Part shown: piece after piece, positions 39,682 to 61,522 of the stretch
How the letters are laid out: every line of letters starts with the position of its first letter
Position numbering within the stretch: position 1 is the stretch's first letter
From: Tetragonia tetragonoides
Taxonomy: Eukaryota; Streptophyta; Magnoliopsida; Caryophyllales; Aizoaceae
NCBI GenBank assembly: GCA_038025085.1
Contig: CM076154.1
Span: 29,442,501 to 29,506,500, forward strand
DNA: 64,000 bases
Reading direction: 5' to 3'
Program-made: the position numbers and the translations under genes
The notes under the pieces: model-generated
Seen by the model: the letters and a program-made list of their open reading frames with translations, nothing else
Told to the model about the DNA's origin: nothing
Database searches by the model: none

Positions 39682-42449
39682 ATGGCTCCCGTAGACAAAG
39701 GGAAGCGTCCTATGTGTGATGAGGAGTATGACCGGAGCCTTTTTCGCACCGGGTTGCCTTCTACCCGAGGGCCTCTGACCCGTCACGCGGATGGGGCTCG
39801 ACTGTACCAGGATTCTTTCATGTGGTTAGACTGGCGCCCGCCTGGAGTTTGGAACCGCAGTGTTCTGTTGCCGACTAGACGGAGTCATTTATCTGACCGG
39901 GAGCTGGTACGTTTTCTGACTCAACTTTTTTTTTCCTGTTCAGTATATATTAACTGAAAATTGGAACTGTTAGTGCTTCGGCACACGAACAAATTGGGAC
40001 TTGTACTGGATTGGTGGTCAGTTGTATATAATTTGCGTAAAATTTATTTTGGCTGTGTTTGTGGTGTATTGGGTATTGAGAAAATTTTGTTGGTGGGCTA
40101 GGGTGTTGGGGTTTAGCTGCAGGCTCATGGGACTACTTCCCATTGGTCTATGATGTTGGGGACCTTTTCGGAGGGGGTCAGGAATTTGGTACTGGACTCG
40201 GGTCTCGCTGATTTCTTGACTGTTATCCCTGCTTGTCACTGGGGGGATCCTAGGATTGTTGCCCGTGGGTTACTGGAGAGGTTTTGGGATTCTACGAACA
40301 CTTTCCATACACCTGTGGGAGAGATGTTTCTGACCCCTTATCAGTTTGCTGTGCTGACGGAGTTATCTTTTAGAGGGCGTTGTATTTAGTACGACGCGAG
40401 TTATTGGCGACAGAGTGACACTTTGTCGGATCTTTATGGGCCTGTATACACCCATTTTGACCAGGATCGGATTTCTTTGGCGTGGATGTGGGATGCTGTT
40501 GCTGCGCAAGGGATCACCGAGGAGCAGAGGGCTCGTATTTTCCTAGCTTGCTTGCTGGGACCGATGATCTTTGCTCAGAAGAAGAGTGTGTGTCAAGTCG
40601 ATTTCTTGACATGTTTGGAGGATTTGACCAAGGTGCGTGAGTACAACCTTGGTGGGGCCGCTTATGCTTCTTTGGTGAAGTGGTGCCGTGGGGCCTGTAG
40701 GCCTAAGGAGACGAGTGAGAGGACATCTATCACGGGCCCATGGAGGATACTAGAGGTAGACTCTCTTTTTTTGTTTACTCCTCTCTTTTTTTGCCTATGT
40801 CTTCAATTGTGGGAATCATTTTTTTTTGTTTGCTTGTATGGCAGCTGTGGTTCTTTGAGTATTTTTCAGCTTTGGGTCCTCATCGTCCTAGTTTGAGGAT
40901 GTTTCCTTTAGGTTCACGATGGGTCGGCAGGGATGCCCATCCGTTCACTTCTCTGGAGCATTTCTGGGTTACCTTTGAGAGCCACGCTGTGTCCACGGTA
41001 CGTTGCTGTTGACTTGTGCGTTCCTTTTGTTCATTCTTTGTGAATGAATTTTGACTTGGTAATCTACAAGTGTCGTGGTCCGCCTTTGATGACGTTCCTG
41101 GGGTTCCTCCCCATATTACCCTAGAGTCTTTCAGGGTATCTTCTCTACGAGTGGTCTTCGAGGGGCCATTCAGCTTTGTATGGTATCTGGGGGATCGCTT
41201 GACTCGATTGGTCTATCCCTCCCTGGGTACTCATCTGGTTCCGGAGGATCCTCCTTTGACCATGTTTTACCTGCGTGGTCTGAGTGTGCGGGACATGGGG
41301 GTCGTGATCCGTGGTAGGGCGGCGCAGGAGTTTATCGTGCCGGAGGTCGTTGGCTTGGACCAGACTGCCATGTATCTGGCCTGTTGCTTGGATCTATTGA
41401 TGTCGGACCTTACTTCTGAGGTAAGTAACTTGTCTGCATCTTTTAATAGTGTGTGTAATATACTGAATTTTTGTGTCTTGCAGGCGGATCGTCTAGCTCT
41501 TCCGGGCCCTAGGAGGTCTCGTTCTAGAGCTTCTCGGGGTCAGCCCCCAAGTGTGACCTTGCTGACCAACGAGGTGAGGTATTTTGGAGAGAGTGGGGGA
41601 CGCATAGTGGAGGAGTTCCCTCTTGATATTGCTGCTGGAGAGGCGGTGGAGGGCCTGCCCTTGCCTGATGGTTGCACGGGGGTGAGTCACCCTCTCTGTC
41701 TCACTTTTATACTTGTGTTTGTTTTTGAGTGTTTGACTCTATCTTGTGGCTCTCTCTCTCTTTTGTAGTTGAACCGGGAGTAGACCTCTCAAGTCTTCAA
41801 GCTCATTCACTTGTTGAAGAAAGGCTATGGTCGAGCGATGGGCAAGGGAAAGAGTTCTCGGTCTAAGACCATTTATGTGAGTAAACTCTCTTCTCTCTTT
41901 GTTCGTTTAGCTAAGTAAAGTGCTTAACTTAACATTTTATCCTTTGATCATCTGCAGATGTCTCAGTCTTCATCTTCGGTAGGACCATGCCACTCTTCTG
42001 CGGCGAGGGTTTCTTCAGTGAGCAGACCGTCTATTGCTCGTTCTCCTCCTGTGGTGGTGACCAGGCCTCCTCTTGATGAGGCGCCCGGACCTTCTGTCCC
42101 CTACATTCCGGAGATGTTCTCTCCTGCTGATTTACGGCCTTCCGTTGATAGGTTGCCTGCTGCTACGCCCTTGGCTGGAGACTGGGCAAACGCCCCTGGA
42201 TGGGATATGTCATATACTGGGCCTTCTCATCAGGATGCGGCTATGGATTTTGCTAGTCAGGCCACTGCGAGCTTATTTGCCTCGGGGTTTTCGGCAGGTA
42301 CCCCTATGCGGGCCCCAGTGTATGATGGACGGGACATGAGGCCTGGGAACAGCAGGCCCATATATAGCTCTTCTTTTCCTTATTCGACCGAAAACTATGG
42401 TCAGGGGCCGTCTGTTGATGATGAGGCTGGCAGTGACGATTCCAGTTGA
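39682..42449 (+). pseudogene. PMD-like (plant mobile domain / aminotransferase-like) cargo gene of the outer Tat element, antisense to pol
   Basis: Seven exons by GT-AG borders: 39682-39906, 40123-40755, 40845-40997, 41071-41420, 41484-41681, 41769-41876, 41958-42449. Exon 2 holds the PMD hallmark (LERFWDSTNTFHTPVGEM, LTPYQFAVL) and VREYNLGGAAYASLVKWC; exon 3 LWFFEYFSALGP; exon 4 FSFVWYLGDRL. The last exon is Ser/Pro-rich and disordered-looking. Lesions are TAG at 40387-40389, TAG at 41781-41783 (CAG to TAG) and one base missing near the exon 4 start. PMD proteins such as MAIN/MAIL1 act in transcription and silencing, and the domain is known from plant transposable elements. A role for this copy is inference only. 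Confidence 0.78.
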
Positions 42450-42686
42450 ACAATGTTGGGCCACCTTTGTAAACATTGGCCTTTGATTTTTGAACTCCTG
42501 TTTTTGGTCTAACACATACACACATTTTTTTTTGATATGCATGAATATGTTATGACGACTCAATTATGCCCGTCTGATCTATTATGTAATGTGTCATGCA
42601 GTAGGACAAAGCTACAAATTTAGGGAATAGTAAAAAAGAAAAGGGTAAAAAATTGCAAGGAAAAAGCAAAAAATTACACATATTAA

Positions 42687-44209
42687 TGTAAGAACCCTCG
42701 CCTTTCCAGCGCGCTTTCGATTTTTAGTTGAGATTAATGGTTCTTAAATATATGTCACATGCGATTCAAATTAATTATAAAGAACAATAATTTGCAAGTA
42801 AGAAGCCGCCACCAGTTTTAAGGAAACAATTGGAAACCATCAAAAGTGCACCCCAATTCCTATTGGGAATTGACTTATGCCCATGGGGACTAAGTATTGA
42901 TTTCGGGGATGTAGGTACGAAATAAATAAAACGAATCTCATCTAAATCGCCCGCATTAACAACCTCTACTAAGCTTATACATGTCAAGTTTTTATTTATG
43001 CTAGATGGTTTCATACAAATCCGGTCGTCCAATGATCCTAAATTAGCTAGGCGGGTTAAGAACAACCAAATTACCTATGTTATCACTTTGCACGATTTAT
43101 ATCCAATTTACATGCATACTATTGACAAGCATAATCATGACATAAAGCATTAAATTAACGCTCCAACCTACCAACTTTGCTAAATGCGCCGTGTATTGCA
43201 TATGCACATCTATAAAACCGTTAGTATCTTCAAAAGAATAATAATAATGCTAAGGTACTAACTTTATGCTAAAATAAACCTAGGAGGCTACTGTATGCAT
43301 GCAAAAACTATGAAAAGATGCAAACTTGCACAAACTAATAAAAAGACGCAAACTTTATATTAACTAAACGTGCATAATTATATACAAAATCAAAAGCATG
43401 CAAATTTATTCAACCTTAATCAAAAGCTAAATAAAACATGATTAATAAACAGCAAATAAGAGATTTAATAAAGAATTGGGCCCCCAGGATGGTTAACCAG
43501 GACGTTCTATTCGAACGGGACTAGTAGAATTGGAATTGCTCTTCGATCTTGGGTGCTAGGCTAGGTGTATTGCTTGCTTGAATCGTCAGATTTCTGAATT
43601 CTCTTTGATTTGGGGAAATATGTGCTCTCAATGCTCTCAAAATTATGAACTCACTGACCTCCTACAAAAGAGGGTGAAAGACAGTATTTATAGAGTTGGG
43701 GGACGGATTTAGGGGCTTAGGGCAAGAAGCCCGGCGTCAAAACTCGGCCCAGTCAAAAGACTGGTTCAGCGGCCACACGGAGGGCAGCTGGGGCCCGCGG
43801 TGGCCGCTGGGGCTCATCGGCTGGGTCGTGGGGCCAACGGCTGACGTAACAGCCGCCGAGCAGCCTGCGAAGGCCGCCGGGCCTGACGGCGCGCGCGTGA
43901 CTAGGGTTTTTGACTTTTTGTGCTCTGTAAATTACGCAATTTCCCTTGGGCTGGCCCAAGGGGCCGGGATTGAGCGGTTTTGACCAAAATCTTCGAGACG
44001 CGATATCTCTTGATCCAGGAACCTGATTGAGGCAAGGTTAAAAAGGCGTTGGAATCCTTATAACAAGGGCTATCAAAAGACTGAGGTTTCAAGGATTTTG
44101 GTCTAGATTTCCGAGCAATGTCCTTTTCTACTTACGTCCATGCTAATCCACTACCATCATCATCGGGCGTTGCGGTGTCAGGGGATGAGAACCGATTAGG
44201 GTGTCTACA
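42687..44209 (-). repeat. Inner Tat 3' LTR, 1523 bp
   Basis: TGTAAGAACCCTCGCC to GGGTGTCTACA, paired with 57178-59860. A TATA box on the minus strand (CTCTATAAATAC, 43684-43695) has a GC-rich block upstream (43748-43895). The 96-codon minus-strand frame at 43065-42775 recurs in the other LTR and is U5 sequence, not a gene. Confidence 0.93.
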
Positions 44210-44223
44210 GAAGCCCCCACTTT
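44210..44223 (-). other. Inner Tat polypurine tract
   Basis: The minus strand reads AAAGTGGGGGCTTC directly before the LTR. Confidence 0.9.
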
Positions 44224-45306
44224 GGCCGAGTTTGTAAAAGCGAAGGTCAAAGTATTTGCTAAATATGCCTGCAATGTTTTTTTTTGATGAAAATGCTTTA
44301 TCTTAGAAAGAAGAAAAGATAGACTCCTGACCGCCTGTGGTCAGGGTTACCTGCATTGTTTAAAGAGCAGTGCGTTGCTCTGCTTCAGTGTTGTCAACGT
44401 GATGCTAATTTTAATAGCCCCATCGTTAAAGAGCGGTATGTTGCCTTGCTTTAATTGTTGCCAACGTGACGCTAATTTTGATAGCTTCATCGTCAAAGAG
44501 CATTGTGTTGCCCTGCCTTAATTGTTGTCGACGCAATGCTAATTTTGGTAGCCTCATCGTCAAAGAGCGGTGCGTTGCTCTGCTTTAGTTGTGCCTGTGC
44601 TTGGAAAGTTGTGCCTGCAAAAAATACAATGAAGTGCCTGTGCCTGCAAAAAGTTAGATATGAGGCTCGCGCCTGCAAAAATAGGTAATGTCGGGTCCCT
44701 AGGATAGGAAACCAAGCTGTGGGGGCAAAAAAGTCATTTTGGGTGATATACTCAAATCTCGCGGGCTTCCAACGGTCGAGAAATGCAATCCTGCGCGGTA
44801 TTTGAACTTGTGGGCCCGCCCCAAGACGGCAAACGCAAAAATTGGCTCGGCGGCCATGCGCAGGGCCGCCGAGTGCTGGGCGGCCTTTACGGGCTCGCTC
44901 GACGGCTCAATTTGCCATGCGAAGGCCATGAGAGGGGCCGCCGGGCGGGGCGTCTTAGCCGCTGAGGCTGGGCGGCCCTGAACCTGGCCGCCGGGCCGGT
45001 TCAGAGGCGCGAAAATGGGTATTTTGTGTGGGAGCCGAGTTTTTTGGGTCATTTCTTGCCCAAAAATTCGAGACTCTCTCTCTCTACCTCCATTGTTGCC
45101 CAAACCTCATTTCTTGCTCAAATTTGCTTCTTTTTGCTTGCATTTGCTTGGTTTTGCATAATCTTTGCATAATTTGAAGTTTATTTGTGATTTTTCACAA
45201 ATTTGGGGTGAATTTGAGAGTGGGTTTTTGAAACCCTTGGAGAGAGAAAAATCCCAATTTCTCCATCTTTGCTTGTTGATCTTTGCTAGCTTGTTCATCC
45301 TTCTTC
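44224..45306 (+). promoter_or_regulatory. Upstream region of the inner PMD-like gene
   Basis: Positions 44350-44600 carry three or four imperfect copies of a roughly 80-90-bp unit (AAAGAGCGGTGCGTTGC, TTGCCAACGTGACGC, AATTTTGATAGC). A GC-rich block spans 44846-44996 (GGCGGCC, GCCGCCGAG, GCCGCCGGG). No clear TATA box; a CT-run (45065-45084) and a leader precede the ATG at 45307. Confidence 0.5.
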
Positions 45307-47979
45307 ATGGCTCCCAAATTGGCGAAGAAGAGGAGTAGAAGGGTCGAGATCCGGGAGGAGGTTGAAGAAATTAATATCTTCACCAAAGCTTTTCCTTCCC
45401 ATGTCAAGCCTTCCAAGAGGAAGCCTAATGTGGCTTTTCCTCAAGATAGGTACACACGGTCGGATAGGAAGCCCGACATCATTTGGGATCGGTCGGAGTT
45501 GCTCTTTCGACCGAGGACTCACTTGAGCTCCCGTGCTTCCAAGTTTGTGGTAAGCCTCAAACCTTGAATTCATAGTTTTATGCATTGAATTTTAGTTTAT
45601 ATGCTTTGCCTTGAGTAGAATTGTGTAGAAATTGTATGCAATTGTCAAGTTTGTAGCGCATGTGATCTTGCGCGGCTTGAACGAACTTAGAAACATGCTT
45701 AGGATTTGAACACTTGGTTGAATGTGAACCTAAGAGGTTGCGAATTTGATCATAGGAATCCGATGGGAATTTGAAGCCCCATGGTAATTATGGTTCTTCG
45801 GTGAGACTTTTTAAGGTCTTGCCCAAGGAGGTGCAAAGTGCGGTTTTGGGTGCGGGGTTCGGACCCCTTTTGAAAGCGGCGGACTCGGTTGAGCGAGTCA
45901 AAAGGTGCATTGTCCGCTTGTCTTTGGAGCGTTTTTGGGATACTACCAACACGTTCCATTTCCCTAATGGGGAGATGATGATCACTCCATCGGAGTTTGC
46001 TCTGTTGACTGGGGTGCCTTGCGTGGGTACGCCCATTGTGTATGACGTTTCTATTTGGAAACGTAAGAGTGAGATGGTGGAGTTGTTCGGCCCTTAGGGA
46101 AATACCTGGGGTCACCATTATCGTCCCTATAGCGAGCTCTACGCTGCTTTGACTGATGCGAGGTACAAGAGGACTACCTCGGTGGAGCAGAAGGCGAGGA
46201 AGTTTATCGCCTATCTCCTTGCCACCACCATCTTTGGTGACAAGGGAGAGCGTATCCATGCTATTTACCTCCCTAGCTTGTTGGATTGGGAGAGGGTGAG
46301 AGAGTACAACTGGGGGGGTTGCCGGGCTACGCCAACCTCTTGAGGTGCATGCGGTTTGCCTGCCGCGTGAATGATAAGGGATACAAGCAGTCGACTCTTC
46401 CTCCCGTGAGCATGTGCGGTTTTTGGAAGGCCTTGCAGGTGCATTTTGCTTTTGTATTCATTTGATGATTTGCATGATTTAAGTGTATGGTGCTTAATTT
46501 CATGTTTTGATGTAGCCTTGGTTTTTTGAGCATTTCCCGGACATGGCGCCTACGGGTTGGGAGTTGGATTTCCCGGTTTGCAGGACGTGGCGTCATAGGG
46601 GTCCTGCGCCCTTTTCGACTCTCCAGCAGTATCGGGAGGCTCTCTTGCACCTAGATTGGCACAAGGTAACGCAGTTTTGCTTTTTTTTACATGGATTGTA
46701 TTTCTTGGTGTGGAAATATCTTATATTGCATGTTTGTGTAGATTGACTACTTCCCTTGGGCGAAGTACCATGGGTTGGCTTCGGATGCTGTCCTTGCATC
46801 TAGGGCGATAGACCGCCAGAGGATCCTGATTGCGGGTTCGTTCTCTTTTGAGTGGTATTTGGGAGAGCGGATCTTCCGTCTTATCCTGACGTGGCTGGAC
46901 CGAGGATTCCCTTGGATCCTCCCTTGACCATGTTCTTGGTGAGGTGCTTGTCACGCGAGCAGGTTGCGGAGGCCATGGTGGGCTCGGATGTTATGCGATA
47001 TTTGAGGGAGCCTGCGGAGGACCTTGCGGGACACTACGAGCAGTTCCGTCGTGATCGCCTCATGCCTTCATTTGTGGGTTTGAAGGTAAGAACTTTATAT
47101 TTGTCATTCTATGCCTTTCTTGTTTTGTTGGTTGCTAACCCTCTTATGCTTCATAGGAGCCTCGGGTCGATGATGTTGACGTGGATGTCCTGGATATGCG
47201 GGTCCGAGGTCGGGACTATGGCAGGAAGGAGTGTTGGGGAGAGGTCCCGATGACGGAGGACCTTGATGAGGACATCCAGGGCCTTCCTCTTCCAGTTGGC
47301 CATCCAGGGGTAAATTTGTCATTTTACCAGTTGCATGTGATTTTTACCATTTTTATGCTTGTATTGACTATTCTTTGCGCAGCTTGACCGTGAGCAGACC
47401 GGGAAGGTCTTCAAGGTGATGCATGATATGAAGTCCTGGATTTCTCGAGCTCTCTCGAAGGGCACTTGCTCCAGAGCTGACTTGGATAAGGTAAACTTGA
47501 TTTGCATTTTCAAAGTTGTATGCTTTGAGAATGTGTTTTATATGCTTGGTGGGTTGCAGGTTGAGTATCGTCGACTCCTTCCTCGTCGGTCACGACAGGT
47601 GGTATTATCGGATGATGAGGTTGTGAGCTCGCCTGAGCGTAGTCCTTCTCGCGAGAGGAGCCCTCGGAGGGAGAGTCCTAGGAGAGAGAGGGAGCCTGTG
47701 CATCGGACGGACCGTCCTGGTGGGAGTAGGATGACTCAGTTTGTGGAGCCTACTCCTATGCCTATACCGATGTATCCTTCTTATCCCGGGTATGCGGGGT
47801 ATGCTCCTTATGGTGGTCTTTACCAACCCCCTATTCCTGCTCCTATGATGCCTACCATGCCTCCTCGTTCTTCTTGGGGGTATGATTCGAGTTATGCTGG
47901 ACAGGGGTGCTCGTATCTGGAGCCTGCCCGTCATTCTTCCTTTGACCCTGGCCAGCTGGCGGTCGATCTTTGGCGATGA
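45307..47979 (+). pseudogene. PMD-like cargo gene of the inner Tat element, antisense to pol
   Basis: Seven exons matching the outer copy in number: 45307-45549, 45756-46438, 46516-46665, 46742-47085, 47157-47309, 47383-47490, 47560-47979. Exon 2 carries RLSLERFWDTTNTFHFPNGE and MMITPSEFALLTGVPCVGTP, then RKFIAYLLATTIFGDKGERI; exon 3 PWFFEHFPDMAP. Exon 6 is 108 bp in both copies. Exon 7 is RS-rich (SPERSPSRERSPRRESPRRE), then P/Y/M-rich. Lesions are TAG at 46095-46097, one base lost in the G-run at 46311-46317 and one lost in exon 4 near 46880. An alternative frame at the end extends to 48064 (EDHFEVLHSDVDVGDDFYD), so the true stop may lie there. It likely encoded a nuclear PMD protein. Confidence 0.8.
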
Positions 47980-48064
47980 GCCCCGGAGGTCGGAGGATCA
48001 TTTTGAGGTGCTCCATTCAGATGTTGATGTGGGTGATGATTTTTATGACAATGTATTTGTATGA

Positions 48065-48797
48065 GATACATTCTTGAACATTTGTGTTGAACAAATATTC
48101 GGACTTCGCTTTGTAATAGATTACTGTTTTATTGGTCCCTGCATATAATTAGGCTTATGCAAATGCACAGGTAGTTAAGCAAAAGCGCAACTAATAGCCA
48201 TGTAGCAAAAAATGGTACAGCCAAAAGGTTAAAATTGGGTGTACCCTATCCCCCTTAAAAAAAATGAAAAAAGAAAGGGGTGCCAAAAATGAAATGAAAT
48301 TAATAAGTGAGAAAAAAGAAATAAGGAAATTGTGGGGTTCCCATAAATAATTAAAGAAATAATAGGAAATAGCAATAATAGAAGAAATAGGAAACTGAGC
48401 CAAATTGGAGTCCCAAACGGTTAAGGAAAGTGTCCAAAACCGGGTAGAAGAGTGTTGTCTCGAAAAAGAGATTCGGCGGCCAAAGGAGGGTGCTCAGCGG
48501 CTGACGCAAAGGAGCGGGGGTCAAAAGTGGGGCCGCCAGACTCAGCGGCTGAGCCGCGGAGGCTGGGCGGCTGGCTGCTGGGCCTTCGCTGCCATATCGT
48601 GGCCGCCGAGCCTTCGGCGGCTGCCCTATGGGCAGCTGAAGCCTATTTTTCGACGGGTTGCCTTATTTTCGTCTTTTTTCGTGCGAGCCCTATATAAGCC
48701 TTGGGTTAGTCCGGTTTTGGGACATCACCTTTTATAACTCCATAGCAATAGAGAGCTTTTTAGAGAGAGAAACCTCCAATTAATTTAGAATTCATCC
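48065..48797 (+). promoter_or_regulatory. Intergenic region and promoter between the inner cargo genes
   Basis: A/T-rich to about 48400, then a GC-rich block (48472-48640, with GGCGGCCAA, CAGCGGCTGAGCCGCGG, GGCCGCCGAGCC, TTCGGCGGCTGCC), a TATA box and a short leader to the ATG at 48798. Confidence 0.55.
48691..48698 (+). promoter_or_regulatory. TATA box of the inner DUF7745-like gene
   Basis: TATATAAG about 107 bp before the ATG and 50-220 bp after the GC-rich block. Confidence 0.65.
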
Positions 48798-50338
48798 ATG
48801 ACAAGTTTTGAAGTTAAGTTCGATAAGTGGTTGCAATCTATGACCCCTGAAGAGAGGATGAGACTTGTGCCCTTTCACTTGAATGCTTTCTTTCATCTGA
48901 AGCAAGTTCAAGTTGTCTGGAACCTTCTTGAGGTTGCGGTTGAATTTTGGGATGACAAGCTTCATGTTTTTAGATTCGGGTATAACAAATTGTCTTCTCT
49001 TCCCGAAGAGTTTGCCGCCATAATTGGGTTCCCTCATGATCAAGCCCCTGCAACTCCATGTCTTGGGGCCAATCTTGAAGGCTACTATAAAAGGTATCTT
49101 GGTTTATCCCCAACACAAGCCTCTTCAATGGCTAGAACCGGTGAGCTAGACCTTAATGGTGTGAATGACATCTTTTTCCCCAAGGTAAGGGATGATCATA
49201 ATGAGACATATTATAGGCGTGCTTTTATCTTATGTCTCTTACATAGGTACCTCTTTGTTGGTGGAAGTAATAATGGTAAAACTTGTATGCTTAGAATTGT
49301 TGAACAAATTCAAAACGATTTTATCCCTACGTCTCTTGTTTTTGGTGAAACCCTAATGTGCTTGGATCGCAAGAAACAAGAACCAACTCATGGTGGATGG
49401 ACGGGAAGCCGTCTTCTCCTTCAAGTGAGTGCTTGAATAATTGCTTTGGATATAAAGTTTGAATCTTTAATGGATACCTAACTTCTTTTTTTTTTATTTT
49501 TTTATTTTAGATATGGCTTTTGGAGCATATGTGCTTCATTGAGAGGCCGGCTAATGCGCTCAAATACCAACCAGAGCAGTTTCCTGCCCGCCAAAGGCTT
49601 TATTATGAATCCACCATTGATGAATGGCGTGGATACCTTAAAGCTTGCCCGTTGCTAAGATGGACTGTCAAGTGGTGGGGCCTAAAATCCGCAATCGGAT
49701 GCACCAAGGAGACGAGACATTATCAATTCCTTGGTCTTCAAAATTTGACTTACATATTTCCTAGCCGTATCATGCGGCAATATGGGAAACGCCAGATTAT
49801 CCCACAGAAGGATAGTGTTGCGTCTGCAACCCGGGTTTTGACTATTAGTATGGTGAGGTCATGGGAGTGTGCATGGGATCGTCACCCTAAGTGGACTATT
49901 CCTCATATCAAGGCCCCAACACCGATATCTTCAGGTTATGAAGCTTGGATGGATTGTAAGACTGCGGAAGGTCGTCGTGCATGTAGGAAATCCGAACAAG
50001 ATGATCTTCAGGCCCAATCGGTCAAGGCTAGCTTAAGGCTTTCTAACCCCAATGATCCTAAAGGGAAGGGTAAGCAAAAGGGAGTCAAGCATATGAAAAG
50101 TGTTCTTAACCCGAAGGCCAAGAAAGCATTAGCCAAGATCACTACTAAGCCGGAGGAGAAGCCCCAAATTCGGGCCAACGATCATGATGCGTCTACAAGT
50201 GATCCTCTAATGGAGGTTGAAAAAGAAGAAGAGCCCGTGGTCCGAGAGAGATGGGCTCCCAAGGAACGCGAAGTGGAAGGCCTAAAGGTTGATGAACCCA
50301 TGGAGGATGTTGTCCCTACTACCGAAGCTACGGAGTAG
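48798..50338 (+). CDS. DUF7745-like cargo protein of the inner Tat element, antisense to pol, intact
   Basis: Two exons, 48798-49424 and 49511-50338, joined by an 86-bp phase-0 GT-AG intron, give 484 codons without stops. The outer copy reads straight through at this exact point (LLFQ then IWLCEHL), which supports the intron. The domain spans most of the protein: AVEFWDDKLHVFRFGYNKL, LPEEFAAIIGFP, RAFILCLLHRYLF, WRGYLKACPLLRWTVKWW, and IMRQYGKRQIIPQ near the domain end. The tail is Lys-rich (KGKGKQKGVKHMK), then acidic. I identify it as DUF7745-like from the FW...F.FG, EEF and RQYG.RQ.IP pattern; the function is unknown. It converges on pol, with a 410-bp spacer. It is the only fully open long cargo gene here. 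Confidence 0.8.
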
Positions 50339-50567
50339 TCTATTAGGAGATACTCTTCTTGGAGCATGTCTAGCTTAGGATTGCCGTTTATTTGCTTTAA
50401 TTTCAATAAGGGTGATGTGCCCTCTTTTTTTTTATTCAGTTGGTTTTTGCCAAGTCTTGTAATGGACTTTATTATTATTTATGGAGACATGCTTATTTTA
50501 ATATTGCAACCTTGTGTTTATTATGTGCACAAATTTTAACAACTTTTGAATGCGAAATTGATGAAAG

Positions 50568-50634: not shown

Positions 50635-50748
50635 TTATCCGTTTATTTTTTTTACATTCAATACCTTATTTTTATTTTTTTTTTTAATTTTTACGGTATT
50701 AGTTAGCCTTGTGTGGGCCTCTCGAAAGTGTTATATTGGGTGTCTTGC

Positions 50749-51676: not shown

Positions 51677-53236
51677 CTAGAACAGGTGGTTCGGATAAAT
51701 AGGCTTTATGTCAAAGGCCTTTTGGCATTGCTCGTCCCATTCCGTCTTTACCTCTTTTTTGAGTTTCTTGAATATGGGCTCACAAGTGATAGTTAACTTG
51801 GAGATGAACTCGCTAATGTATTGGATTCTTCCTAGGAAGCCTTTTATTTCCTTTTCCGTTTTCGGAGGCGGCATGTCCATTATGGCTTTGATCTTGGATG
51901 GATCGATTTCTATCTCTCTGGTGCTTATGACAAATCCTAGATGTTTGCCGGATGTAACTCCGAATGCGCACTTCTTGGGATTAAGCCTCATATTGTACTT
52001 CCTAAGCATGTCAAAGCACTTTTGAAGTGAGGGTACATGCCCTTCTCTGTCTTTGGACTTTATGATCATATCATCTACGTACACTTCAGCTTCTTTATGC
52101 ATCATATCATGGAGTAACGTCGTAGCTGTTCTTTGGTATGTGGATCCCGCATTCTTAAGCCCAAACGACATTACTGTATAGCAATAACTGCCCCACTGTG
52201 TGATGAAAGTGGTTTTCTCTTCGTCCTCTTTGGTCATTAGGACTTGGTTATATCCTGCGTACCCGTCCATAAATGATAGAAGGGCGTGTCCGGCTGTGTT
52301 ATCTACCAAGACGTCTATATGAGGTAAGGGAAAGTCGTCTTTTGGACTTGCTCTGTTCAGGTCCCTAAAATCTACACACATTCGGACCTGTCCGTCCATT
52401 TTTGGGACTGGGACAATGTTGGCTACCCAATCGGGGTAATTGGCCACTCTTATGAAGCCTGCCTCTAGTTGTGTCTGGACTTCCTCCTTGATCTTAAGAG
52501 CCCACTTTGGCTTCATTTTTCTTAACTTTTGTTTGACTGGTTTGCAGTCGGTATTTAGCGGAATGGTATGATGAGCAATTTTGCGGTCTATGCATGGCAT
52601 GTCCTTATAGGATCAGGCGAAAACATCCGTTTAATTCTTTAGGAGTGTTACGAATTGTTCGCGTTCATTAGATGTTAAAGACAAACCTATTTGCACGTGG
52701 CGAGGTTCATCATTAGTTGCAATGTTTATTCTCTCCGTTTCTTCGATTATTGAAGTCTTTTGCTCATGTTCGATTAGTGCTTTAATAACTTCTTTCGGCA
52801 ATTCCGTTATATTTTCTGAATTATTAGCGGAGATGCAATCCGAGTAAGCAAAATCAACGTTCATAATATTAATAGAAGCAGACAATACATCAATGAGGTC
52901 ATCACTAAGGACCTTAGCAGGAATAGACTGGGGTGGACTACCCGACACTTCTAGGATAACAGACTCAGAATCAGACTCGGACTCGGAATCAGGCTCAGAA
53001 TCAGAGATGGGCTCTCCTGTAGGAACGTTGCAGATGGTGAACTTGTACTTGGCTTCCTTGACCGGGGTCCAATTCGTCTTGTGCTTCCAAGTGTTGCGGT
53101 CTGGCCCGATTGGGGCGATCAGCTTGGTCGGGTCGAAACCTTCATTAAAAAGCACAGTAAGGGGAAGTTTGGTAGTGGTCTCGTCGTACTGACGACTCTC
53201 TTTTCCAAATAAAAGCCCAAAGTCGTTGGGTGCCAT
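51677..53236 (-). pseudogene. Inner Tat protease-RT linker and reverse transcriptase
   Basis: The linker (53236-52631) has an acidic Ser/Asp/Glu repeat (SDSEPDSESESDSES). Two in-frame stops near 52613-52633 follow, one from TGG to TGA. RT then runs 52600-51677: VPKMDGQVRMCVDFRDLNRA, HALLSFMDGYAGYNQV, FGLKNAGSTYQR, the catalytic YVDDMIIKS near 52069-52095, and MRLNPKKCAFGV. It shares its frame with the gag-protease part upstream, so the intact element would have read through as one polyprotein. Confidence 0.92.
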
Positions 53237-53260
53237 GTCATTAGCCCAATCTTTAGTGGA

Positions 53261-55522
53261 TTAGTCCTCATTGGGAGGTATGGGTGTGTCTTCACTCATG
53301 AGGAAACAGTCTTGAAATGCCTCAAAGCCTGGCATTAGAATCCCGTTGATTGTGTATGGTTCAGGGAATCCATAGTAAGGATATGGGTCGCCTTCCTGAA
53401 GGAATTTGCCATTGAGGGTAAGGGGATAATGATCCATGCTGTGTGTAACGGGTTTGTTAGCCGCACAGGCTCTTTTCTTAGCCATCACTTTTGATATGTA
53501 GGCCCTAACTTCTTGCCTTGTGGGCCTGTAGCCCAGCCCGAATAAATCATTTTTGATCTTGGTGTTCCAAGAGGCTTGAGCTACCTTGGGATGAGGGCCC
53601 AAAGTGGTGACTGGGAAGTGGCCTTGCTTTCTGAGTAAAGCATTCACATTAAGTGTGGGCTCTATTGTTTCTATGAAGGTTATCTTCTCAAAACCCCATA
53701 ACTCCTCGTCTTGCTCATTATGCTCTATCTTTAGGACTGAAGCTTTCTCAATCTGGGCTATCATAGTATCGGTGCAGACTTCCAAGGTGGATCCTACCAA
53801 AGATAGTTTTACCTTTTGATGCAGAGTTGAGGCTACAACATTTAGCCCGTGTAACCAAGGCCTTCCTAAGAGTAGGTTGAAGGTGGCCGGAATGTCGATC
53901 ACATGGAACTGGACCATTTTCTCGATGGGCCCAATATTTATATTCATCGAGAAAGTACCCAATACATTCCTTTTGGAATTATCATAGGCCCTTAGCCCTT
54001 GTACGGAATGCGCGAGGTTGTTGCAGTCTATTTTGAGGTGTTCAGCAGTCCTCAAGGGGCATACATTTCCGGCAGAGCCATTGTCGACTAAAGTCATAGG
54101 GACTTGTATCTGTTGACAGATTACAGTAAGATAAAGGGCCTTGTTGTGGTGAATACCTTCGGGTGGAAGGTCTTTGTCAGAAAAGGTGATGGGCGTGGAT
54201 GACTTTCCTTGGGTCAGGCGGTTGACTACCTCTTCAGGAGTGGCATTTGGAGAAATGGTGGTTGCGTTCAAGGCCTCTAGCACGGCCCTTCTATGAGTGA
54301 TAGAAGTGGTCAATAGTTGCCAAATGGATATGTCGGCTTTTGTTCTTTGCAGTTGCTTGAGGATATTGGTCCCATCATCTTCTTTAGCCATTTCCCTTTG
54401 GGCCGAATCCCTATTGGGGATGGCTACAGGCTCCACAGGTTGGATTTGAGGTGGATCCATATAGATGTTTTCGGGCCTGAATTGGCGTCCCGATCTTGTG
54501 AGATAGTTTAGAGCTTTATCATCTTCTTCCTTTTCATCATCGGAGATATCATACCAGGCTTTGTTATTAGCTATGTCATGGACTTGGGGAGTCAACACAT
54601 CTTCTGGATCAGTATATGCCCCATTATCTTCCTCATCACTATCCCAAAGGCCGCACACGTCCACCGTGGATCTTGGGCTTGGGTATGGTGGTATGGTCTG
54701 TCCAATAGGTGTGATCAAATAGGAGGGATCAAACCCTTCTTCTATGTCAATGGCAAAAGAATTCCCAAGGGGATTGTTGTTGTTGCTGGGCGGTGGTGCA
54801 TCTTTAGGCAATGGTATTGTGCCATTGTCAAACAAGTCTTGGATTTTATCCTTGAGGGTGTAATACTTTTCAGTGTCGTGCGCACGCCCCCTATGGTATT
54901 TGCAGAATGCGGACTCGTTCCAATATGGTGACCTTTTCTCTACAGGTGGATCGGGAGTAGGCCCAATCGGATGTAGATAATCTCCTTTGATCATCTTATC
55001 TAGAGCTTTGACATAAGTCATCCAGAGGGGAGTGTACCTTCTTGGACGCCTATCAACTATGGCGTTCACTTCATTTCCTCTACTCGTGGAGGTATGGTTG
55101 GTATTGGTGTATTTCTTATCCTTATATCCACTTGTGTTGTTATTGTAAGTGACTTTGTTCTTCCCCCTTTGGAGTTGGTCATCTTCAATGGTCATGCCCA
55201 CTTCAGTTAATTGGGCATAGGTGGTTATGGGTTGAAACTTCATGTGTTCGCAGTATTCAGATGCCAAATTCTGGACTAGCATTCGAATTTGATCCCTTTT
55301 AGATGGACGATCAATCATTTCGGCTACCTTAGTCCTCCATCTTCTCACGAAACTAGTGAACCCTTCCTTGTCACCTTGCTTGGTGATGTCCAGCTCTCTT
55401 AATGTCATGGGTGGCAAGATATTGTCAGCATATCTCTGGAGGAATAGTGTGGATAGATCTTCCCATTTTTCCAACTTTTGGGTGGGCAACCTGAACAACC
55501 AGGCCCTGACAGCAGGATCCAA
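53261..55522 (-). CDS. Inner Tat gag C-terminal part and protease
   Basis: A 753-codon open minus-strand frame. The gag domain continues (WEDLSTLFLQRYADNILPP, TSFVRRWRTKVAEMI), then the zinc-binding-like module CKYHRGRAHDTEKYYTLKD, in which Tyr replaces the last Cys. A retroviral-type aspartic protease follows with VDNGSAGNVCPL and LLGRPWLHGLNVV; Tat elements often have DNGSA in place of DTGA. The first in-frame Met is not the true start, since the N-terminal gag lies upstream in another frame (56152-55553), joined by a single frameshift near 55540. Confidence 0.88.
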   Translation of the reverse strand: MDPAVRAWLFRLPTQKLEKWEDLSTLFLQRYADNILPPMTLRELDITKQGDKEGFTSFVRRWRTKVAEMIDRPSKRDQIRMLVQNLASEYCEHMKFQPITTYAQLTEVGMTIEDDQLQRGKNKVTYNNNTSGYKDKKYTNTNHTSTSRGNEVNAIVDRRPRRYTPLWMTYVKALDKMIKGDYLHPIGPTPDPPVEKRSPYWNESAFCKYHRGRAHDTEKYYTLKDKIQDLFDNGTIPLPKDAPPPSNNNNPLGNSFAIDIEEGFDPSYLITPIGQTIPPYPSPRSTVDVCGLWDSDEEDNGAYTDPEDVLTPQVHDIANNKAWYDISDDEKEEDDKALNYLTRSGRQFRPENIYMDPPQIQPVEPVAIPNRDSAQREMAKEDDGTNILKQLQRTKADISIWQLLTTSITHRRAVLEALNATTISPNATPEEVVNRLTQGKSSTPITFSDKDLPPEGIHHNKALYLTVICQQIQVPMTLVDNGSAGNVCPLRTAEHLKIDCNNLAHSVQGLRAYDNSKRNVLGTFSMNINIGPIEKMVQFHVIDIPATFNLLLGRPWLHGLNVVASTLHQKVKLSLVGSTLEVCTDTMIAQIEKASVLKIEHNEQDEELWGFEKITFIETIEPTLNVNALLRKQGHFPVTTLGPHPKVAQASWNTKIKNDLFGLGYRPTRQEVRAYISKVMAKKRACAANKPVTHSMDHYPLTLNGKFLQEGDPYPYYGFPEPYTINGILMPGFEAFQDCFLMSEDTPIPPNED

Positions 55523-55552
55523 AGTTTGGGGAAAGAGGTGAACATACAGCTC

Positions 55553-56152
55553 TTATTCAATGCCTCTAAGGCCCAATGCAGTAGTAAAAGCCCTAATGTG
55601 ATCTTGTGGATCATCGGTTCCTTTGAATGTGGGAACTTCAGGCATGGAGAACTTATTGGGCAATTTTCCTTTGATGTGGAGAGCATAGCCTTCAGAATTG
55701 ATGATCATGTCGTTGAAGGCACGACTCTTACCTAAGACAGATTTGAGCCTGTTCAGCTTGGCTTGAAGTTCTTGCACCTCTTTAGTGGAGGGTTCGGCCT
55801 TTTCCCCATCGGGCTTGGGCTCATCATCATCTTTATTAGGGGGATCCAACTTGGCAACACGAGCTTCTATATCAGTAAATCTAGAATTCATGGCGACCAT
55901 TTGGGCTAAAAGGTCATCCATCTTCTGGTCAGCGGTTCTCTCGGCGTCTCCAGACATAGCGGACTTAGGCGAATCGGATGGTGAGGTTTGAGGTGACAGT
56001 GGCAGTGTGTGAAGGTAATCGAGCCAAACGGGGCCCACGAACTGTGCTTGTGGTGAAGGTTCGAACGATAACTTGTGGACTAACCTCTTGCTGGACTCGT
56101 CTCTCTCCCACCCCCTAGGACTAGGATCTCTACTTCTACCAATTCTGGACAT
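55553..56152 (-). pseudogene. Inner Tat gag N-terminal part
   Basis: Starts at MSRIGRSRDPSPRGWERDE (ATG 56152), a better start than upstream Mets because the text before it is hydrophobic leader sequence. Contains a heptad-like stretch (KMDDLLAQMVAMNSRFTDIE) and the beginning of the gag domain (MPEVPTFKGTDDPQDHIRAF). A frameshift near 55553 separates it from the rest. Confidence 0.85.
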
Positions 56153-56263
56153 AAAAAAGGCTCGTTTAAGAAAATAGAAAATAAATGGGAACCTCCACAT
56201 AATAATAAAAGTTTTATTTTTATAACAAATGTGGGAAGAGAATGTAGCACTAATCCTCAACAT

Positions 56264-57157: not shown

Positions 57158-57176
57158 ATCCCCAGTGAAGTTGCCA
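57158..57176 (-). other. Inner Tat primer-binding site
   Basis: The minus strand reads TGGCAACTTCACTGGGGAT one base after the LTR. Similar to 25852-25870. Confidence 0.88.
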
Positions 57177-58045
57177 CTGTAAGAACCCTCGCCTTTCCGG
57201 CGCGCTTTCGATTTTTAGTTGAGATTAATGGTTCTTAAACATATGTCACATGCGATTCAAATTAATTATAAAGAACAATAATTTGCAAATAAGAAGCCGC
57301 CACCAATTTTAAGGAAACAATTGGAAACCATCAAAAGTGCACCCCAATTCCTATTGGGAATTGACTCATGCCCATGGGAAATAAGTATTGAGTTCGAGGA
57401 TGTAGGTACGAAATAAATAAAATGAATCTCACCTAAATCGCCCGCATTAACGGCCTCTACTAAGCTTATCCATGTCAAGTATTTATTTCTTCTATATGGT
57501 ACCATACAAATCCGGTCGTCCAGTGATCCTAAATTAACTAGGCGGGTTAAGAACAACCAAATTACCTATGTTATCACTTTGCACGATTTATATCCAATTT
57601 ACATGCATACTATTGACAAGCATATTCATGACGTAAAGCATTAAATTAACGCTCCAACCTACCAACTTTGCTAAACGCCGCCGTGTATTGCATATGCACA
57701 TCATCAACTAATAAAAAGACGCAAACTTTATATTAACTAAACGTGCATAATTATATACAAAATCAAAAGCATGCAAATTTATTCAACCATAATCAAAAGC
57801 TAAATAAAACATGATTAATAAACAGCAAATAAGAGATTTAATAAAGAATTAGGCCCTCAGGATGGTTAACCTTGATGTTCTATTCGAACGGGACTAGTAG
57901 AATTGGAATTGCTCTTCGATCTTGGGTGCTAGGCTAGGTGTATTGCTTGCTTGAATCTTCAGATTTCTGAATTCTCTTTGATTTGGGGAAATATGTGCTC
58001 TCAAAATTATGAACTCACTAACCTCCTACAAAAGAGGGTGAAAGG

Positions 58046-58059
58046 GAGTATTTATAGAG
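58046..58059 (-). promoter_or_regulatory. TATA box of the inner Tat 5' LTR
   Basis: The minus strand reads CTCTATAAATACTC. A GC-rich block (58128-58245) lies upstream. Confidence 0.65.
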
Positions 58060-58273
58060 TTGGGGGACGGATTTAGGGGCTTAGGGCGAGAAGCCCGGCG
58101 CCAAAACTCGGCCCAGTCAAAAAACTGGTTCAGCGGCCACACGGAGGGCAGCTGGGGCCCGGAGTCGCCGCTAGGGCCAGCGGCTGGCGTAACAGCCCCC
58201 GCTGTCACGCGCTGGCCGCCGGGCCTGACGGCGCGCGCGTGACTAGGGTTTTTTACTTTTTGTGCTCTGTAAA

Positions 58274-58966
58274 TTACGGAATTGCCCTTAGTCTGGCCCA
58301 AGGGGCCGGGATAGAGCGGTTTTGACCCAAATCTTCGAGACGCGATATCTCTTGATTCAGGAACCTACATATTTTGTCCTTGCAACCCACAATTAACACA
58401 TTAAACCCAAACTGATAATCAGACAAATGATTCCAACAGTGAAGCACCTTATATTCCTTGTTAACAGGATCAAAGCCGAAGAAGAATCTTGTTTCATGGT
58501 CGATGTTTATTGGCGGTGTTGCAGGAAGAGGCAGGGTTTCACCTGTTGTGAGATTATAAAGGTAACCTGTCTTACAAGCACCATGATATAAACCTGCTTT
58601 CTCATAAAAGCACATCAAGCCATTCACTACGTTCGATGTATATGGCGCTTTGAGGCGCAACGATCGCTGTCTGCTAAGGTTTGAGGTCGGCTTCGTCTTG
58701 TCTACATGTATATCAACAACATTGAAGACTTTCCCGTCAAAAATACTACCATTATAGTTGCTTTCCAATAGAAGGGTTACAACACGCTCTCGTGACTCGG
58801 GACGTTTTTGATGCATCTCGGCAAAGATGGGATGGGTTATAAGAGATGACCAGTGTTTAGAGACGGACTTGAATCGCATAAGAGACTTGGCTGGAAGTCT
58901 CACAAGCACTTCCATCAGCACATCAGTAGGCATACCGCTATTGTCTTCATGCCTCCTCTTTGCCAT
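58274..58966 (-). pseudogene. F-box gene, 3'-truncated, fused to LTR sequence
   Basis: An ATG at 58966 opens a 230-codon minus-strand frame. The F-box lies near residues 10-50 (MPTDVLMEVLVRLPAKSLMR, FKSVSKHWSSLITHPIF), the Skp1-binding part of SCF ubiquitin ligases. An F-box-associated domain follows (NVVNGLMCFYEKA, LYNLTTGETLPLP, FFFGFDPVNKEYKVLHCW). At about 58373 the frame passes into LTR sequence (ISRLEDLGQ...) and stops about 31 codons later. Plant F-box/FBA proteins are usually 350-400 residues, so about 40% is missing. The start follows the family pattern. Upstream Met codons exist but give a non-conserved extension. Confidence 0.85.
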
Positions 58967-59690
58967 GGATGGACCTAATGAAAAAAAGAGAATACAACGT
59001 TCTTGAGAAATTAACAAAAGTATCCTGCTTGAGCTCTAATTGCTCTTTTTTTGGAAGGTCTTTAAAAGACCTCAGCCGCCTATTTAAGCTACGGATTAGG
59101 AAGTTTCTCCTGAGCTTCCATTATTACCGATGTGGGACAAAGCCTTTTTTTTTTTTTAAATTAACAATGCTTTTCCTATTATAGCTTCCATTTAGCGTAA
59201 TTCTAGGGGTTCATCACAGGAATTAACACAAGTAATTCAAAAGTTTACACATCATTTTTTAAACTTCCTGTATTATGATCATTTTGATTTACATAGAATA
59301 TCTTTCGTTTTACAATTAAATTATGATATCTGCAGATAATAATATTCTGTTGCATGGTTCCTTATTGTAGGATTGCAATTTGTTTTGATTAGTTCTCATC
59401 TATTTTTGAAAAGAATGAAGAACATGATTTAATTGCCAACTTGTGGAACTTTGACCGTTTGATTGTTCATATTTTATACATATTGGACAGTTGAATTTTT
59501 TCTGTCATTGCCTTTTCATTTAGCTTCTTATGGCAAAATTGCCATGGATTCTGAGTTCCCTTCAAGTAGTTAAGTATAGGTTAACTGCATCATTAGTACG
59601 CTTTGGCTCACCTTCGACAAACGGTATATACAGGTCTCAGTCTCACAGTCATTTGCAAGCCTCGCTCATGGTGCTGCAACCCACAAATCT
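58374..59690 (-). other. Captured host DNA in LTR: F-box coding start plus about 720 bp of its 5' flank
   Basis: The insert lacks LTR similarity. It holds the F-box coding start and, on its upstream side (58967-59690), AT-rich promoter-like DNA with TTAAATAGG near 59085-59093. An 11-bp repeat GCAACCCACAA lies near both ends (58382-58392 and 59676-59686). No transposon ends seen. Confidence 0.7.
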
Positions 59691-59860
59691 TCAAAGGCGT
59701 TGGAATCCTTATAAGAAGGGCTATCCAAAGACTGAGGTTTCAAGGAATTTGGTCTAGATTTTCGAGCAATGTCCTTTTCTACTTACGTCCATGCTAATCC
59801 ACTATCATCATCATCGGGCGTTGCGGTGTCAGGGGATGAGAACCGATTAGGGTGTCTACA

Positions 59861-60222
59861 ATTACACCCCCTAAAAAAAATAAAGAAAATAATAAAAAAA
59901 GAAATGAAAAAGATAAATCTAAGAGAGTCTCGGGCTTTGTAATTCCGCGCGGGTATTAAAAACTGGGCTGAAATTGGGTCGTCTGGATCGGAAAATGCGA
60001 ACTGGAGGAAAAAGGAACTCGGACTGGGCTAGGGTGTGGGCCGCTAGCGGCGCTGGGCTGCGCCGCTAGCGGCACTGGTCAGTCCTACTGACAGCCTTTT
60101 TTTGTGAATTTTTGGCTTTTTCGGCCCGCGTTCCTGTCTATAAATAGGATATTCGGGGTGCTTGATGTTGTACAACTTTTTTGTATACCTTTAGCTCTCC
60201 CAAACTTCTCCAATTTTCAGCC
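59861..60222 (+). promoter_or_regulatory. Promoter region of the outer DUF7745-like gene
   Basis: A-rich at the left. GC-rich block 60036-60080 with perfect GCCGCTAGCGGC at 60040-60051 and 60062-60073, TATA box CTATAAATAG at 60138-60147, leader, ATG at 60223. Confidence 0.6.
60138..60147 (+). promoter_or_regulatory. TATA box of the outer DUF7745-like gene
   Basis: CTATAAATAG, 76 bp before the ATG and about 65 bp after the GCCGCTAGCGGC pair. Confidence 0.7.
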
Positions 60223-61522
60223 ATGGTGAAATCCTTTGAAGATCTGTTCAATGCTTGGTGCTTGGTGCAAAAATTTGACCGTAGAAGATAAACTTAAACT
60301 AGCCCCTTCTTCGGTCTGCTTTGAATTATTGGGATCCTAACTTGCATGTTTTCCGGTTTGGTAATTCTGAATTATGCCCTTTGGTTGAGGAATTTGCTGC
60401 GATCACTAATATTCCTGACGTTCTTCCCTCATCTGTGCCTTATGTGAGAGATGGTTTTAGGGATCAATACAAAAAATCTCTGGGCTTGTCATCTGCAGAA
60501 GCCAAAAACATGGTGCTCGGTGCTGATGTGGACTTAGTTCAACTTTGCGAAAAATTCGTTATTTCTTCTGAAAAAGGTGCCATATTAAGACATTGTCGTC
60601 GACAGGCTTTTGTACTGTGCCTGTTAAACCGCCTGTTGTTTGTTAATGCAGAATCTTCCAACATGGGTAGAGCTTCGTTGCTGCGAGTGGTTAATCAAAC
60701 GGTTGAAGGCTATTCTCCCTTACATCTGGTCATAAGAGAAACCATTATTGGGCTCGACATGTTGAAAACATCTCCTAACCAAGCTTTTTCGGGCAGGCCC
60801 CTGCTGTTTCAAATCTGGTTATGCGAGCATCTAAAGTTGATAGAGTCGCCGGATAATCTGATTATCCGTGTTCCTCGGACTTGGTCAAAGAAAACTTGTA
60901 CTGTTGCTAGCTTTCTGGTGAGGAAGAGGCTATATTCTGAGAAGTCCCTTGCCGAATGGGATGCCTTTTTCAAAGTGGGACCTATCATCCGTTGGCATGT
61001 ACCTTGGTGGAGCTTGACTTCTTTAGTAGCTTATGATGACTTGATCCTTCATACTACCATACTTGGTCTGTATAGGACCACTTTCTTCTTTCCCTCTATG
61101 GTCATGACGCAATATGGTTTGAGTCAAGTGATCCCTCGTCAGGAGACTACGAGACCAAATGTCGTAGCCATAACCACTAATTTGCTACAGAGTAGGGAAA
61201 GTATTGGCGTAGCCGACATCGCTGGACTGTACCTCGGATGATTGCCCCAACTCAGGTTTCTGAGATCTACCTAAATCGGCTTTCCTGCAGTGATGGAGAA
61301 GCGAGACGAGCCCTTCGTCATGAGGAGTGGGACCAACTAAAGCCTAGGTATGACTCACAAACAGGAGGTAAGAAAAGAAAGAAAATGTCTCGAATAGGAG
61401 ACTACCATGTACTGAAAAGAGGCAAGCCCCCAGCTCAAGGAAGCGATCACAGGTCGTCCTCAAGTCAGGGTCCTTCAAAGAAGAACTCTTCAAAGATGCC
61501 TTCTAAAGGGAAGAAGGATTAA
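60223..61522 (+). pseudogene. DUF7745-like cargo gene of the outer Tat element, broken
   Basis: ATG at 60223 (MVKSFEDLFNAW) parallels the start of the inner copy, but a stop follows at codon 23, and about 25 codons before NYWDPNLHVFRFGNSEL are deleted or frameshifted. From 60321 the frame is open to 61241: EEFAAITNIP, RRQAFVLCLLNRLLFVN, LLFQIWLCEHLKLIESPDN, WDAFFKVGPIIRWHVPWWSL, MTQYGLSQVIPRQ. A frameshift near 61200 moves the tail to 61238-61522, which is basic (GGKKRKKMSR, KKNSSKMPSKGKKD) and may be a nuclear signal. The intron of the inner copy is absent. It is convergent with integrase, separated by only 86 bp. Confidence 0.78.

Follow-up and report, generated by a model that had tools for sequence, protein, structure and literature searches.

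Introduction

Antisense additional open reading frames (ORFs) between pol and the 3' long terminal repeat (LTR) are described for Grande (gene23), RIRE2, Silene Retand and PvRetro13, and the same source recounts that Grande gene23 has its own promoter and encodes a nuclear protein (PMC7264820). Nearly all Retand elements have antisense ORFs, and tandem arrays are common among them (PMC11963269), and a plant mobile domain (PMD) is present in 57% of Ogre elements (PMC6317226). Here we analyze a 64,000-nucleotide stretch of Tetragonia tetragonoides DNA (GenBank assembly GCA_038025085.1, contig CM076154.1, named C16 in our searches, C16:29442501-29506500; hereafter the window), which holds two nested Ty3-type LTR elements, A and C, each carrying two antisense genes (gene 1 and gene 2). 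What is new here is a finding in cis: a GC-rich box precedes both genes and is also present in LTR promoters, common within an element family and not between families.

Two further systems bear on this locus. VANC proteins bind short motifs, arranged in tandem repeats that differ from one related VANDAL family to another, and remove silencing; two domains are marked in these proteins, one of them DUF1985 (PMC5735166). MAIN-MAIL1-PP7L of Arabidopsis comprises two different, interacting PMD proteins, with a promoter motif in part of the dependent genes (PMC7156037). Ikeda et al. raised the speculation that the PMDs which Mutator-like elements (MULEs) have captured serve the anti-silencing of transposable elements (TEs) (PMC5418596). 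In the titles and abstract openings of the literature that we searched, which lies outside subscription journals such as that of Steinbauerova et al., there was neither a two-PMD module nor its boxes.

Results

Two nested elements carry the same pair of antisense genes

Element A is nested within element C and sits between C's two antisense genes, with the 5-mers ATTAA and ATTAC (one mismatch) flanking the insertion. The interval 39682-61522 spans both genes of C because the insertion of A splits the pair (Table 1). In A and in C alike, gene 1 is followed by gene 2 on the plus strand, antisense to pol, between pol and the 3' LTR, and the LTRs of the two elements have no common blastn match (E 1e-10, 80 columns). 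The initial annotation had proposed this arrangement, i.e. the same antisense pair in the same order and orientation in two elements with different LTRs, and the coordinates, the LTR blastn comparison and the A/C alignments confirm it. It had also given the genes their own promoters, which is supported by a TATA box for gene 2 of both elements, with a TATA-like site for C gene 1 and none found for A gene 1.

The gene 1 proteins of A and C are 32% identical over 580 columns (E 2e-73), and the six introns of the gene lie at matching places in both elements, with ends GT..AG (one exon edge of C gene 1, near 41000-41070, is ambiguous). Being on the antisense strand, these introns would stay in the genomic RNA through retrotransposition. 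The gene 2 proteins are 37% identical over 299 columns (E 3e-62), and the site of the intron of A gene 2 is open frame in 28/30 C-family loci. At codon positions 1/2/3, identity between A and C is 0.49/0.57/0.38 for gene 1 (358/644 better-aligned codons) and 0.55/0.63/0.38 for gene 2 (313/408), as compared with 0.64/0.72/0.39 for a piece of integrase (105/111). This is the pattern of coding constraint, beyond chance, and a chance layout was rejected.

Both genes encode PMD proteins

Domain membership was judged by curated cut-offs (34.9 bits for PMD, PF10536; 26 bits for DUF7745, PF24924; 35.1 bits for DUF1985), the gene 1 proteins of the window being scanned in spliced form with X at stops and frame breaks. 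Gene 1 is above the PMD cut-off in both elements (85.0 bits in A, 78.4 bits in C), and the window copies of gene 2 are below it (18.8 bits in A, 23.7 bits in C). Long open copies of gene 2, with frames of at least 400 amino acids (aa) from an ATG, exist elsewhere in 5/30 C-family loci; three of these five were scanned and all pass (41.3, 43.1 and 42.7 bits), with matches running from position 16-19 to 345 of 347. The match of A gene 2 is sub-threshold and covers profile positions 18-295, no A-family copy being shown above the cut-off; we call it PMD because it is homologous to C gene 2 and has this sub-threshold match. As judged from these profile matches, gene 2 is a second, divergent PMD gene and the cargo of both elements is a twin-PMD module.

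Gene 2 had been taken for a DUF7745-like gene in the initial annotation. That half of its PMD plus DUF7745 pair did not hold: the window copies reach 12.8 and 17.9 bits and other copies 16.7-20.9 bits over about 50 residues, below the cut-off, and the full-length match is to PMD. A six-frame search of the genome found two C-family gene 2 places barely over the DUF7745 cut-off (26.9 bits), in an N-terminal stretch, and of 118 candidates scored genome-wide for DUF7745 itself, 90 are matches; 11 of these cover most of the model. No mention of DUF7745 was found in the open literature searched. DUF1985 matches exon 2 of A gene 1 below its cut-off (E 1.4e-4, 22.3 bits, positions 25-131 of 141), and none of the papers listed by a search of the open literature pairs DUF1985 with a plant mobile domain.

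Searches of a protein database returned no match to gene 1 among 7,994 scored candidates and none below 1e-3 to gene 2 among 953 candidates, and a PDB sequence search gave no meaningful match. An AlphaFold model of gene 2 from a three-row alignment was useless (mean pLDDT 33.7). As a side observation, strong PMD matches form two local clusters elsewhere in the genome (C9:42.07-42.32 Mb and C15:4.42-4.61 Mb), with many open frames longer than 500 aa.

The pair is numerous, retained, and under codon constraint

In the 752,761,462-base assembly, we found at least 150 matches each for A gene 1, C gene 1 and A gene 2 (150/150 scored for each), and at least 127 for C gene 2 (127/127 scored). These counts are lower bounds because only the best of 4,272-7,176 first-look candidates were scored. 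In 29/30 A-family and 27/30 C-family loci, gene 2 is preceded by the last gene 1 exon, both being on one strand; the window copy is among the three C-family misses because A is inserted there. With 24-29 copies per figure, many with stops, pN/pS is 0.13 in exon 6 (36 codons) and 0.32 in exon 7 of A gene 1, and 0.41 in exon 7 of C gene 1, exons that were not picked by protein score. It is 0.15 in exon 1 and 0.24 in the PMD part of exon 2 of A gene 2, and 0.23 in C gene 2, the values for A gene 2 exon 1 and C gene 2 being biased towards low pN since gene 2 loci were picked by protein score. Six intergenic frames serving as non-coding controls gave 0.48-1.12.

The idea of a kept accessory pair, which came with the initial annotation, thus stands on co-occurrence and codon constraint (coding pN/pS 0.13-0.41), the profile searches of the spliced proteins having returned PMD matches, and the pair is not confined to the copies in the window. 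These results also speak to the reading in which host PMD genes were captured as passengers without a role. Plant LTR elements are known to capture genes (PMC7264820), but both genes are constrained in both families and retained across loci at the frequencies given above; we consider this reading very improbable and rejected it.

A GC-rich box marks the antisense promoters and the LTRs

Clusters of GCGGC/GCCGC (at least four per 150 bp) occur six times in the window, one ahead of each of the four antisense genes and one in each A LTR, and none of 100 order-2 Markov copies of the window went above three. Of the 70 sites of the window, 27 fall within 500 bp upstream of an antisense gene start, against 2.2 expected (169 of 64,000 circular shifts reach this), and the C 3' LTR together with both A LTRs holds 13 of the 70, against 4.4 expected (2,687 of 64,000 shifts), with none in four control LTRs. 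Enrichment of the motif by region gave P 0.001-0.05 in 6/8 regions. AGCGGC/GCCGCT is the most enriched 6-mer and is present in 7/7 promoter regions (21 seen, 2.4 expected); the regions for this ranking, as for the comparison of box pairs below, were picked after the clusters had been seen, and an unselected scan of the whole window serves as the check. Observed/expected CpG is 0.81-1.08 in the boxes and 0.54-0.74 in the genes, gag-pol, leader and the rest of the C LTR. This excess was not used as support because a box-free stretch of the A LTR has 0.83.

In 5/7 promoters with a TATA or TATA-like site (gene 2 of A, gene 2 of C, both A LTRs and the C LTR), the nearest motif is 65-76 bp upstream of that site; the distance is 13 bp for C gene 1 and 109 bp for the LTR of a third element, E. 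The spacing of 65-76 bp is a usual position for host factors, and it suits a reading in which the boxes are sites for host transcription factors, e.g. of the GCC-box ERF type, that drive the PMD genes, the PMD proteins having their role elsewhere, such as in chromatin tethering or help with integration. GCCGCC is the core of the GCC-box, and A-type boxes contain it. The C-type unit lacks GCCGCC, however, and with a single host factor one would not expect orthologous promoters to differ between A and C while non-orthologous promoters of one family are alike, as set out below. We regard host-factor sites as a rather unlikely account of the boxes, one that also draws on the fact that their sequence is not slowed in evolution.

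Boxes are alike within a family and unlike between families

Within an element, all box pairs (6/6) are alike beyond dinucleotide shuffles (z 2.3-11.5), whereas none of the 15 cross-element pairs is (15/15 with z <=2.0, lowest P 0.06). In the unselected scan of the window, the boxes of the A LTR, A gene 1 and A gene 2 are mutual best partners with scores of 19-30 (background <=15), and the box of C gene 1 pairs with that of C gene 2 with a score of 25 (background <=17). Four A and nine C copies, plus the window, show the same at the family level: mean scores between the gene 1 and gene 2 boxes are 25.5 in family A and 22.3 in family C, as opposed to 15.7 between the gene 1 boxes of A and C and 14.1 between their gene 2 boxes.

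The likeness extends to LTRs. Another C-family LTR (L077) contains one perfect and one one-mismatch unit, and compares to the C gene 1 and gene 2 boxes with z 10.3 and 5.4 versus z <=0.7 to the three A boxes. Units at <=4 mismatches are present in two of the three C LTRs that cover the region (L077 and L078), in the same orientation to transcription as in 7/8 gene 1 promoters with units in other copies, the exception (L074) having its gene 1 units reversed. The LTR part of the stretch in four other A-family copies has 3-5 motif sites each.

C gene 2 promoters carry 1-5 units in 26/30 cases and none in 4/30, with a spacing of exactly 22 bp in 33/34 instances; the unit is absent from 30 gene bodies, 30 shuffled promoters and 30 A promoters. 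Family C has in common with VANC-type systems a short, element-specific motif in variable tandem repeats in its own non-coding DNA. Family A has clusters, with no clear period by eye.

Genome-wide, the core of the C unit, GCCGCTAGCGGC, has 7,369 sites, versus 16 for its reversed control. Among 61 listed positions at the start of contig C1, 11/14 spacings within clusters are 22 or 30 bp, and among the listed distances between clusters of less than 12 kb, 7/39 are 3,365-3,709 bp, near the 3,579 bp that separate the gene 1 and gene 2 boxes of C once A is removed. The A-type sequence GAGGCTGGGCGGC has 145 sites, versus 1 in the control. Of 100 listed sites, 39 are directly upstream of a listed gene 2, 1 is upstream of a gene 1, 16 are at gene-2-promoter distance from a listed gene 1, and 44 were matched to neither, so that 56 are at a promoter of the module, compared with 0.1 after shifting and 0 after strand flip (assignment used 96 of 150 listed gene 2 and 86 of 150 listed gene 1 places, those on contigs with listed sites). 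Separately, several GCCGCTAGCGGC sites at C1:4.20-4.27 Mb are about 7.7 kb apart and lie beside PMD matches, perhaps a tandem element array.

One locus (L075, C4:26770013-26771863, with L054) is a natural chimera in which the end of an A gene 1 and an A gene 2 box are followed by a C gene 1 leader and C gene 2. It shows the box moving as a unit, though this may be chance. That the A box and the C leader are joined at the box would also suit a structural role, in which inverted repeats in the boxes form hairpins in genomic RNA (for dimerization, packaging or template switching) and recombination during reverse transcription makes them alike within a family. All seven stretches folded as RNA exceed dinucleotide shuffles in stability (z -2.3 to -7.0), and the box has gaps more often than the intron or the intergenic stretch does. 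A position 65-76 bp before the TATA site in most promoters is not what an RNA packaging element would be expected to show, nor is an orientation in L077 and L078 that follows the gene 1 promoters, L074 excepted, and we find a structural role quite improbable.

Other features of the window

The domains found in the elements are reverse transcriptase (RT), integrase and gag, the latter below its cut-off. A viral-contig scan with the RT of A found no relative, and there were no Rfam or tRNA matches. The positions of all features are collected in Table 1. The insert in the A 5' LTR overlaps an F-box frame (PF00646, E 1.2e-9), and a 67-bp tandem repeat of 3.5 copies, which resembles Retand arrays, lies between the A 3' LTR and gene 1. 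Element E, with gag, is truncated by element B; its LTR and leader pieces are 70-75% like those of A, and its LTR has AGCGGC sites that are arranged differently. Element B has LTRs of about 0.5 kb starting with TGTAACACCCC, which were used as control LTRs without boxes, and its right end adjoins the C 3' LTR. Relic D consists of a gene 2 tail and an integrase end, 87% identical to C, and is split by an AT microsatellite; against the C gene 2 tail, it gave dN 0.10 and dS 0.23 (88 codons), values that we did not rely on. An integrase fragment, copia-like by eye, has 42-bp repeats upstream.

Table 1. Positions of genes, promoter boxes, LTRs and neighboring elements, counted from the first nucleotide of the window
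Feature	Position	Strand	Remarks
C gene 1, PMD, seven exons	39682-42449	+	in-frame stops, decayed copy; PF10536 78.4 bits
C gene 1 exons	39682-39906, 40123-40755, 40845-~41000, ~41070-41420, 41484-41681, 41769-41876, 41958-42449	+	
A gene 1, PMD, seven exons	45307-47979	+	decayed: in-frame stops and frame breaks; PF10536 85.0 bits
A gene 1 exons	45307-45549, 45756-46438, 46516-46665, 46742-47085, 47157-47309, 47383-47490, 47560-47979	+	
A gene 2, divergent PMD, two exons	48798-49424, 49511-50338	+	both exons open
C gene 2, divergent PMD, intronless	60222-61522	+	frame breaks, decayed copy
C gene 1 promoter box	39285-39378	+	three units around GCCGCTAGCGGC, 2-3 mismatches; 13 bp before TATA-like site 39392
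C gene 2 promoter box	60038-60077	+	two units spaced by 22 bp; TATA 60139 is 65 bp downstream
A gene 1 promoter box	44850-44991	+	cluster of 7 GCGGC/GCCGC sites; no TATA found
A gene 2 promoter box	48476-48621	+	8 sites; 69 bp before TATA 48691
A 3' LTR box	43769-43877	-	76 bp upstream of LTR TATA 43685
A 5' LTR box	58133-58219	-	76 bp upstream of LTR TATA 58049
C 3' LTR motif sites	38056-38081	-	two sites, weak here; 71 bp upstream of LTR TATA 37977
A 3' LTR	42687-44209	-	
A 5' LTR	57178-59860	-	split by insert ~58367-59692
C 3' LTR	~37190-38457	-	right edge inferred from CTACA end and polypurine tract common with A
A gag-pol region	51677-56263	-	RT 51677-52612
C integrase and further reading frames	61609-63803	-	past window edge
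F-box frame	58274-59035	-	
67-bp tandem repeat	44362-44592		
Element E	~24300-28348	+	
Relic D	23078-24105		
Element B	28860-37189		
Integrase fragment	18885-20023	+	

Discussion

Plant LTR elements have long been known to carry antisense genes to which no function had been assigned, and a constrained PMD pair with a DNA address turns this into a directly testable question of binding. The mechanism that we propose would start from each family's own box before both antisense genes and in the LTR promoters. Both PMD proteins would be made and enter the nucleus, where, like MAIN and MAIL1 in Arabidopsis, they would form a pair; the box of their own family would be bound by one of the two proteins or by a partner, and binding would open the promoters rather than close them. 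We tentatively favor, at slightly less than an even chance, that the PMD pair acts jointly on the family box to activate its own element or shield it from silencing, as a sequence-specific switch of the VANC kind. Where element-encoded PMD proteins come as a pair and three promoters bear a family-specific address, self-directed transcription control is the best reading. Counter-silencing is favored because of the VANC precedent and the published speculation on PMD anti-silencing. Counter-silencing or transcription control had been the guess of the initial annotation, and the family-specific boxes lend it circumstantial support.

The same parts could serve the opposite end. The module might restrain its own element, either by PMD proteins repressing the LTR via the box or by antisense transcripts that form double-stranded RNA (dsRNA) and lead to silencing. 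MAIN and MAIL1 are required for TE silencing (PMC7156037, PMC5418596), and antisense transcripts have been discussed as dsRNA sources in such elements (PMC7264820). Codon constraint on both proteins argues against a role of the RNA only, the families are numerous (thousands of first-look candidates beyond the matches counted for each gene), and a pure self-repressor would bring no obvious gain to the element. We hold self-restraint to be unlikely.

A number of results weigh against the self-directed activating switch. Motif counts in the A LTRs are not above dinucleotide expectation (P 0.21 and 0.27). The window's own C LTR, like the LTR of E, is not above background in the unselected scan, and has no unit at <=4 mismatches. 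The folding of the boxes as RNA means that a DNA-binding role is not forced. Many copies have stops: in family A, stop-free copies number 9/28 for gene 1 exon 7, 23/29 for gene 2 exon 1 and 8/27 for the PMD part of exon 2, and in family C 15/27 for gene 1 exon 7 and 19/29 for gene 2. Gene 1 and gene 2 show no significant blastp match to each other (best E 0.43) and no convincing profile match, so that their kinship rests on the PMD match of both, and the DUF1985 match, below cut-off in A gene 1, is absent from C gene 1. Nor do the boxes evolve more slowly than their surroundings: their divergence is 12.4%, as compared with 11.5% and 11.6% in neighboring non-coding DNA, and we rejected slower box evolution as an over-claim, only the motif 5-mers being kept somewhat better (23.1 versus 18.7 of 30). 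Finally, in family C a gene 1 box is no more like the gene 2 box of its own copy than like that of another copy (22.50 versus 22.29, P 0.43). Copy-by-copy co-evolution of the two boxes was therefore rejected as well, and co-evolution holds at the level of the family only, where it rests on two families.

A broader version of the activating switch is possible but decidedly doubtful. It holds that the PMD pair relieves silencing by recognizing a family-specific tandem-array address before the LTR and both antisense genes, that lock and key changed together in each family, that the DUF1985 of VANC is a distant branch of the PMD fold, and that VANC and the PMD pair form one ancient class of plant TE anti-silencers, from which MAIN and MAIL1 were drawn. 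If the self-directed switch itself is right, LTR elements would possess a system of the VANC kind, PMD would be explained as a domain with which elements countered silencing before the host used it in MAIN/MAIL1, and epigenome work would gain a sequence address.

As to how the locus compares with known systems, the genes of A and C occupy the same position and orientation as the antisense ORFs of the Grande/Retand type. They differ from these in their cargo, which is PMD as opposed to the Transposase_28 domain of the Retand antisense ORF, and in consisting of two paired PMD genes, gene 1 having six introns. The extracts of the accounts of Grande/Retand-type ORFs describe no family-specific boxes common with the LTR. 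For the PMDs of Ogre/Gypsy elements (PMD-A1 and PMD-A2), the corresponding extracts describe the domains, with no two-PMD module per element and no common boxes; it is tempting to guess that these two correspond to genes 1 and 2. With MAIN-MAIL1, the module has in common two different PMD proteins and a promoter motif, but MAIN and MAIL1 are host genes. The likeness to VANC/VANDAL lies in the combination of an element-encoded protein with a short, family-specific motif in variable tandem repeats within the element's own non-coding parts (PMC5735166, PMC10398659), and in the weak match of A gene 1 to DUF1985. VANDAL, however, is a Mutator-like DNA transposon with one VANC protein, whereas A and C are LTR elements with two antisense PMD proteins.

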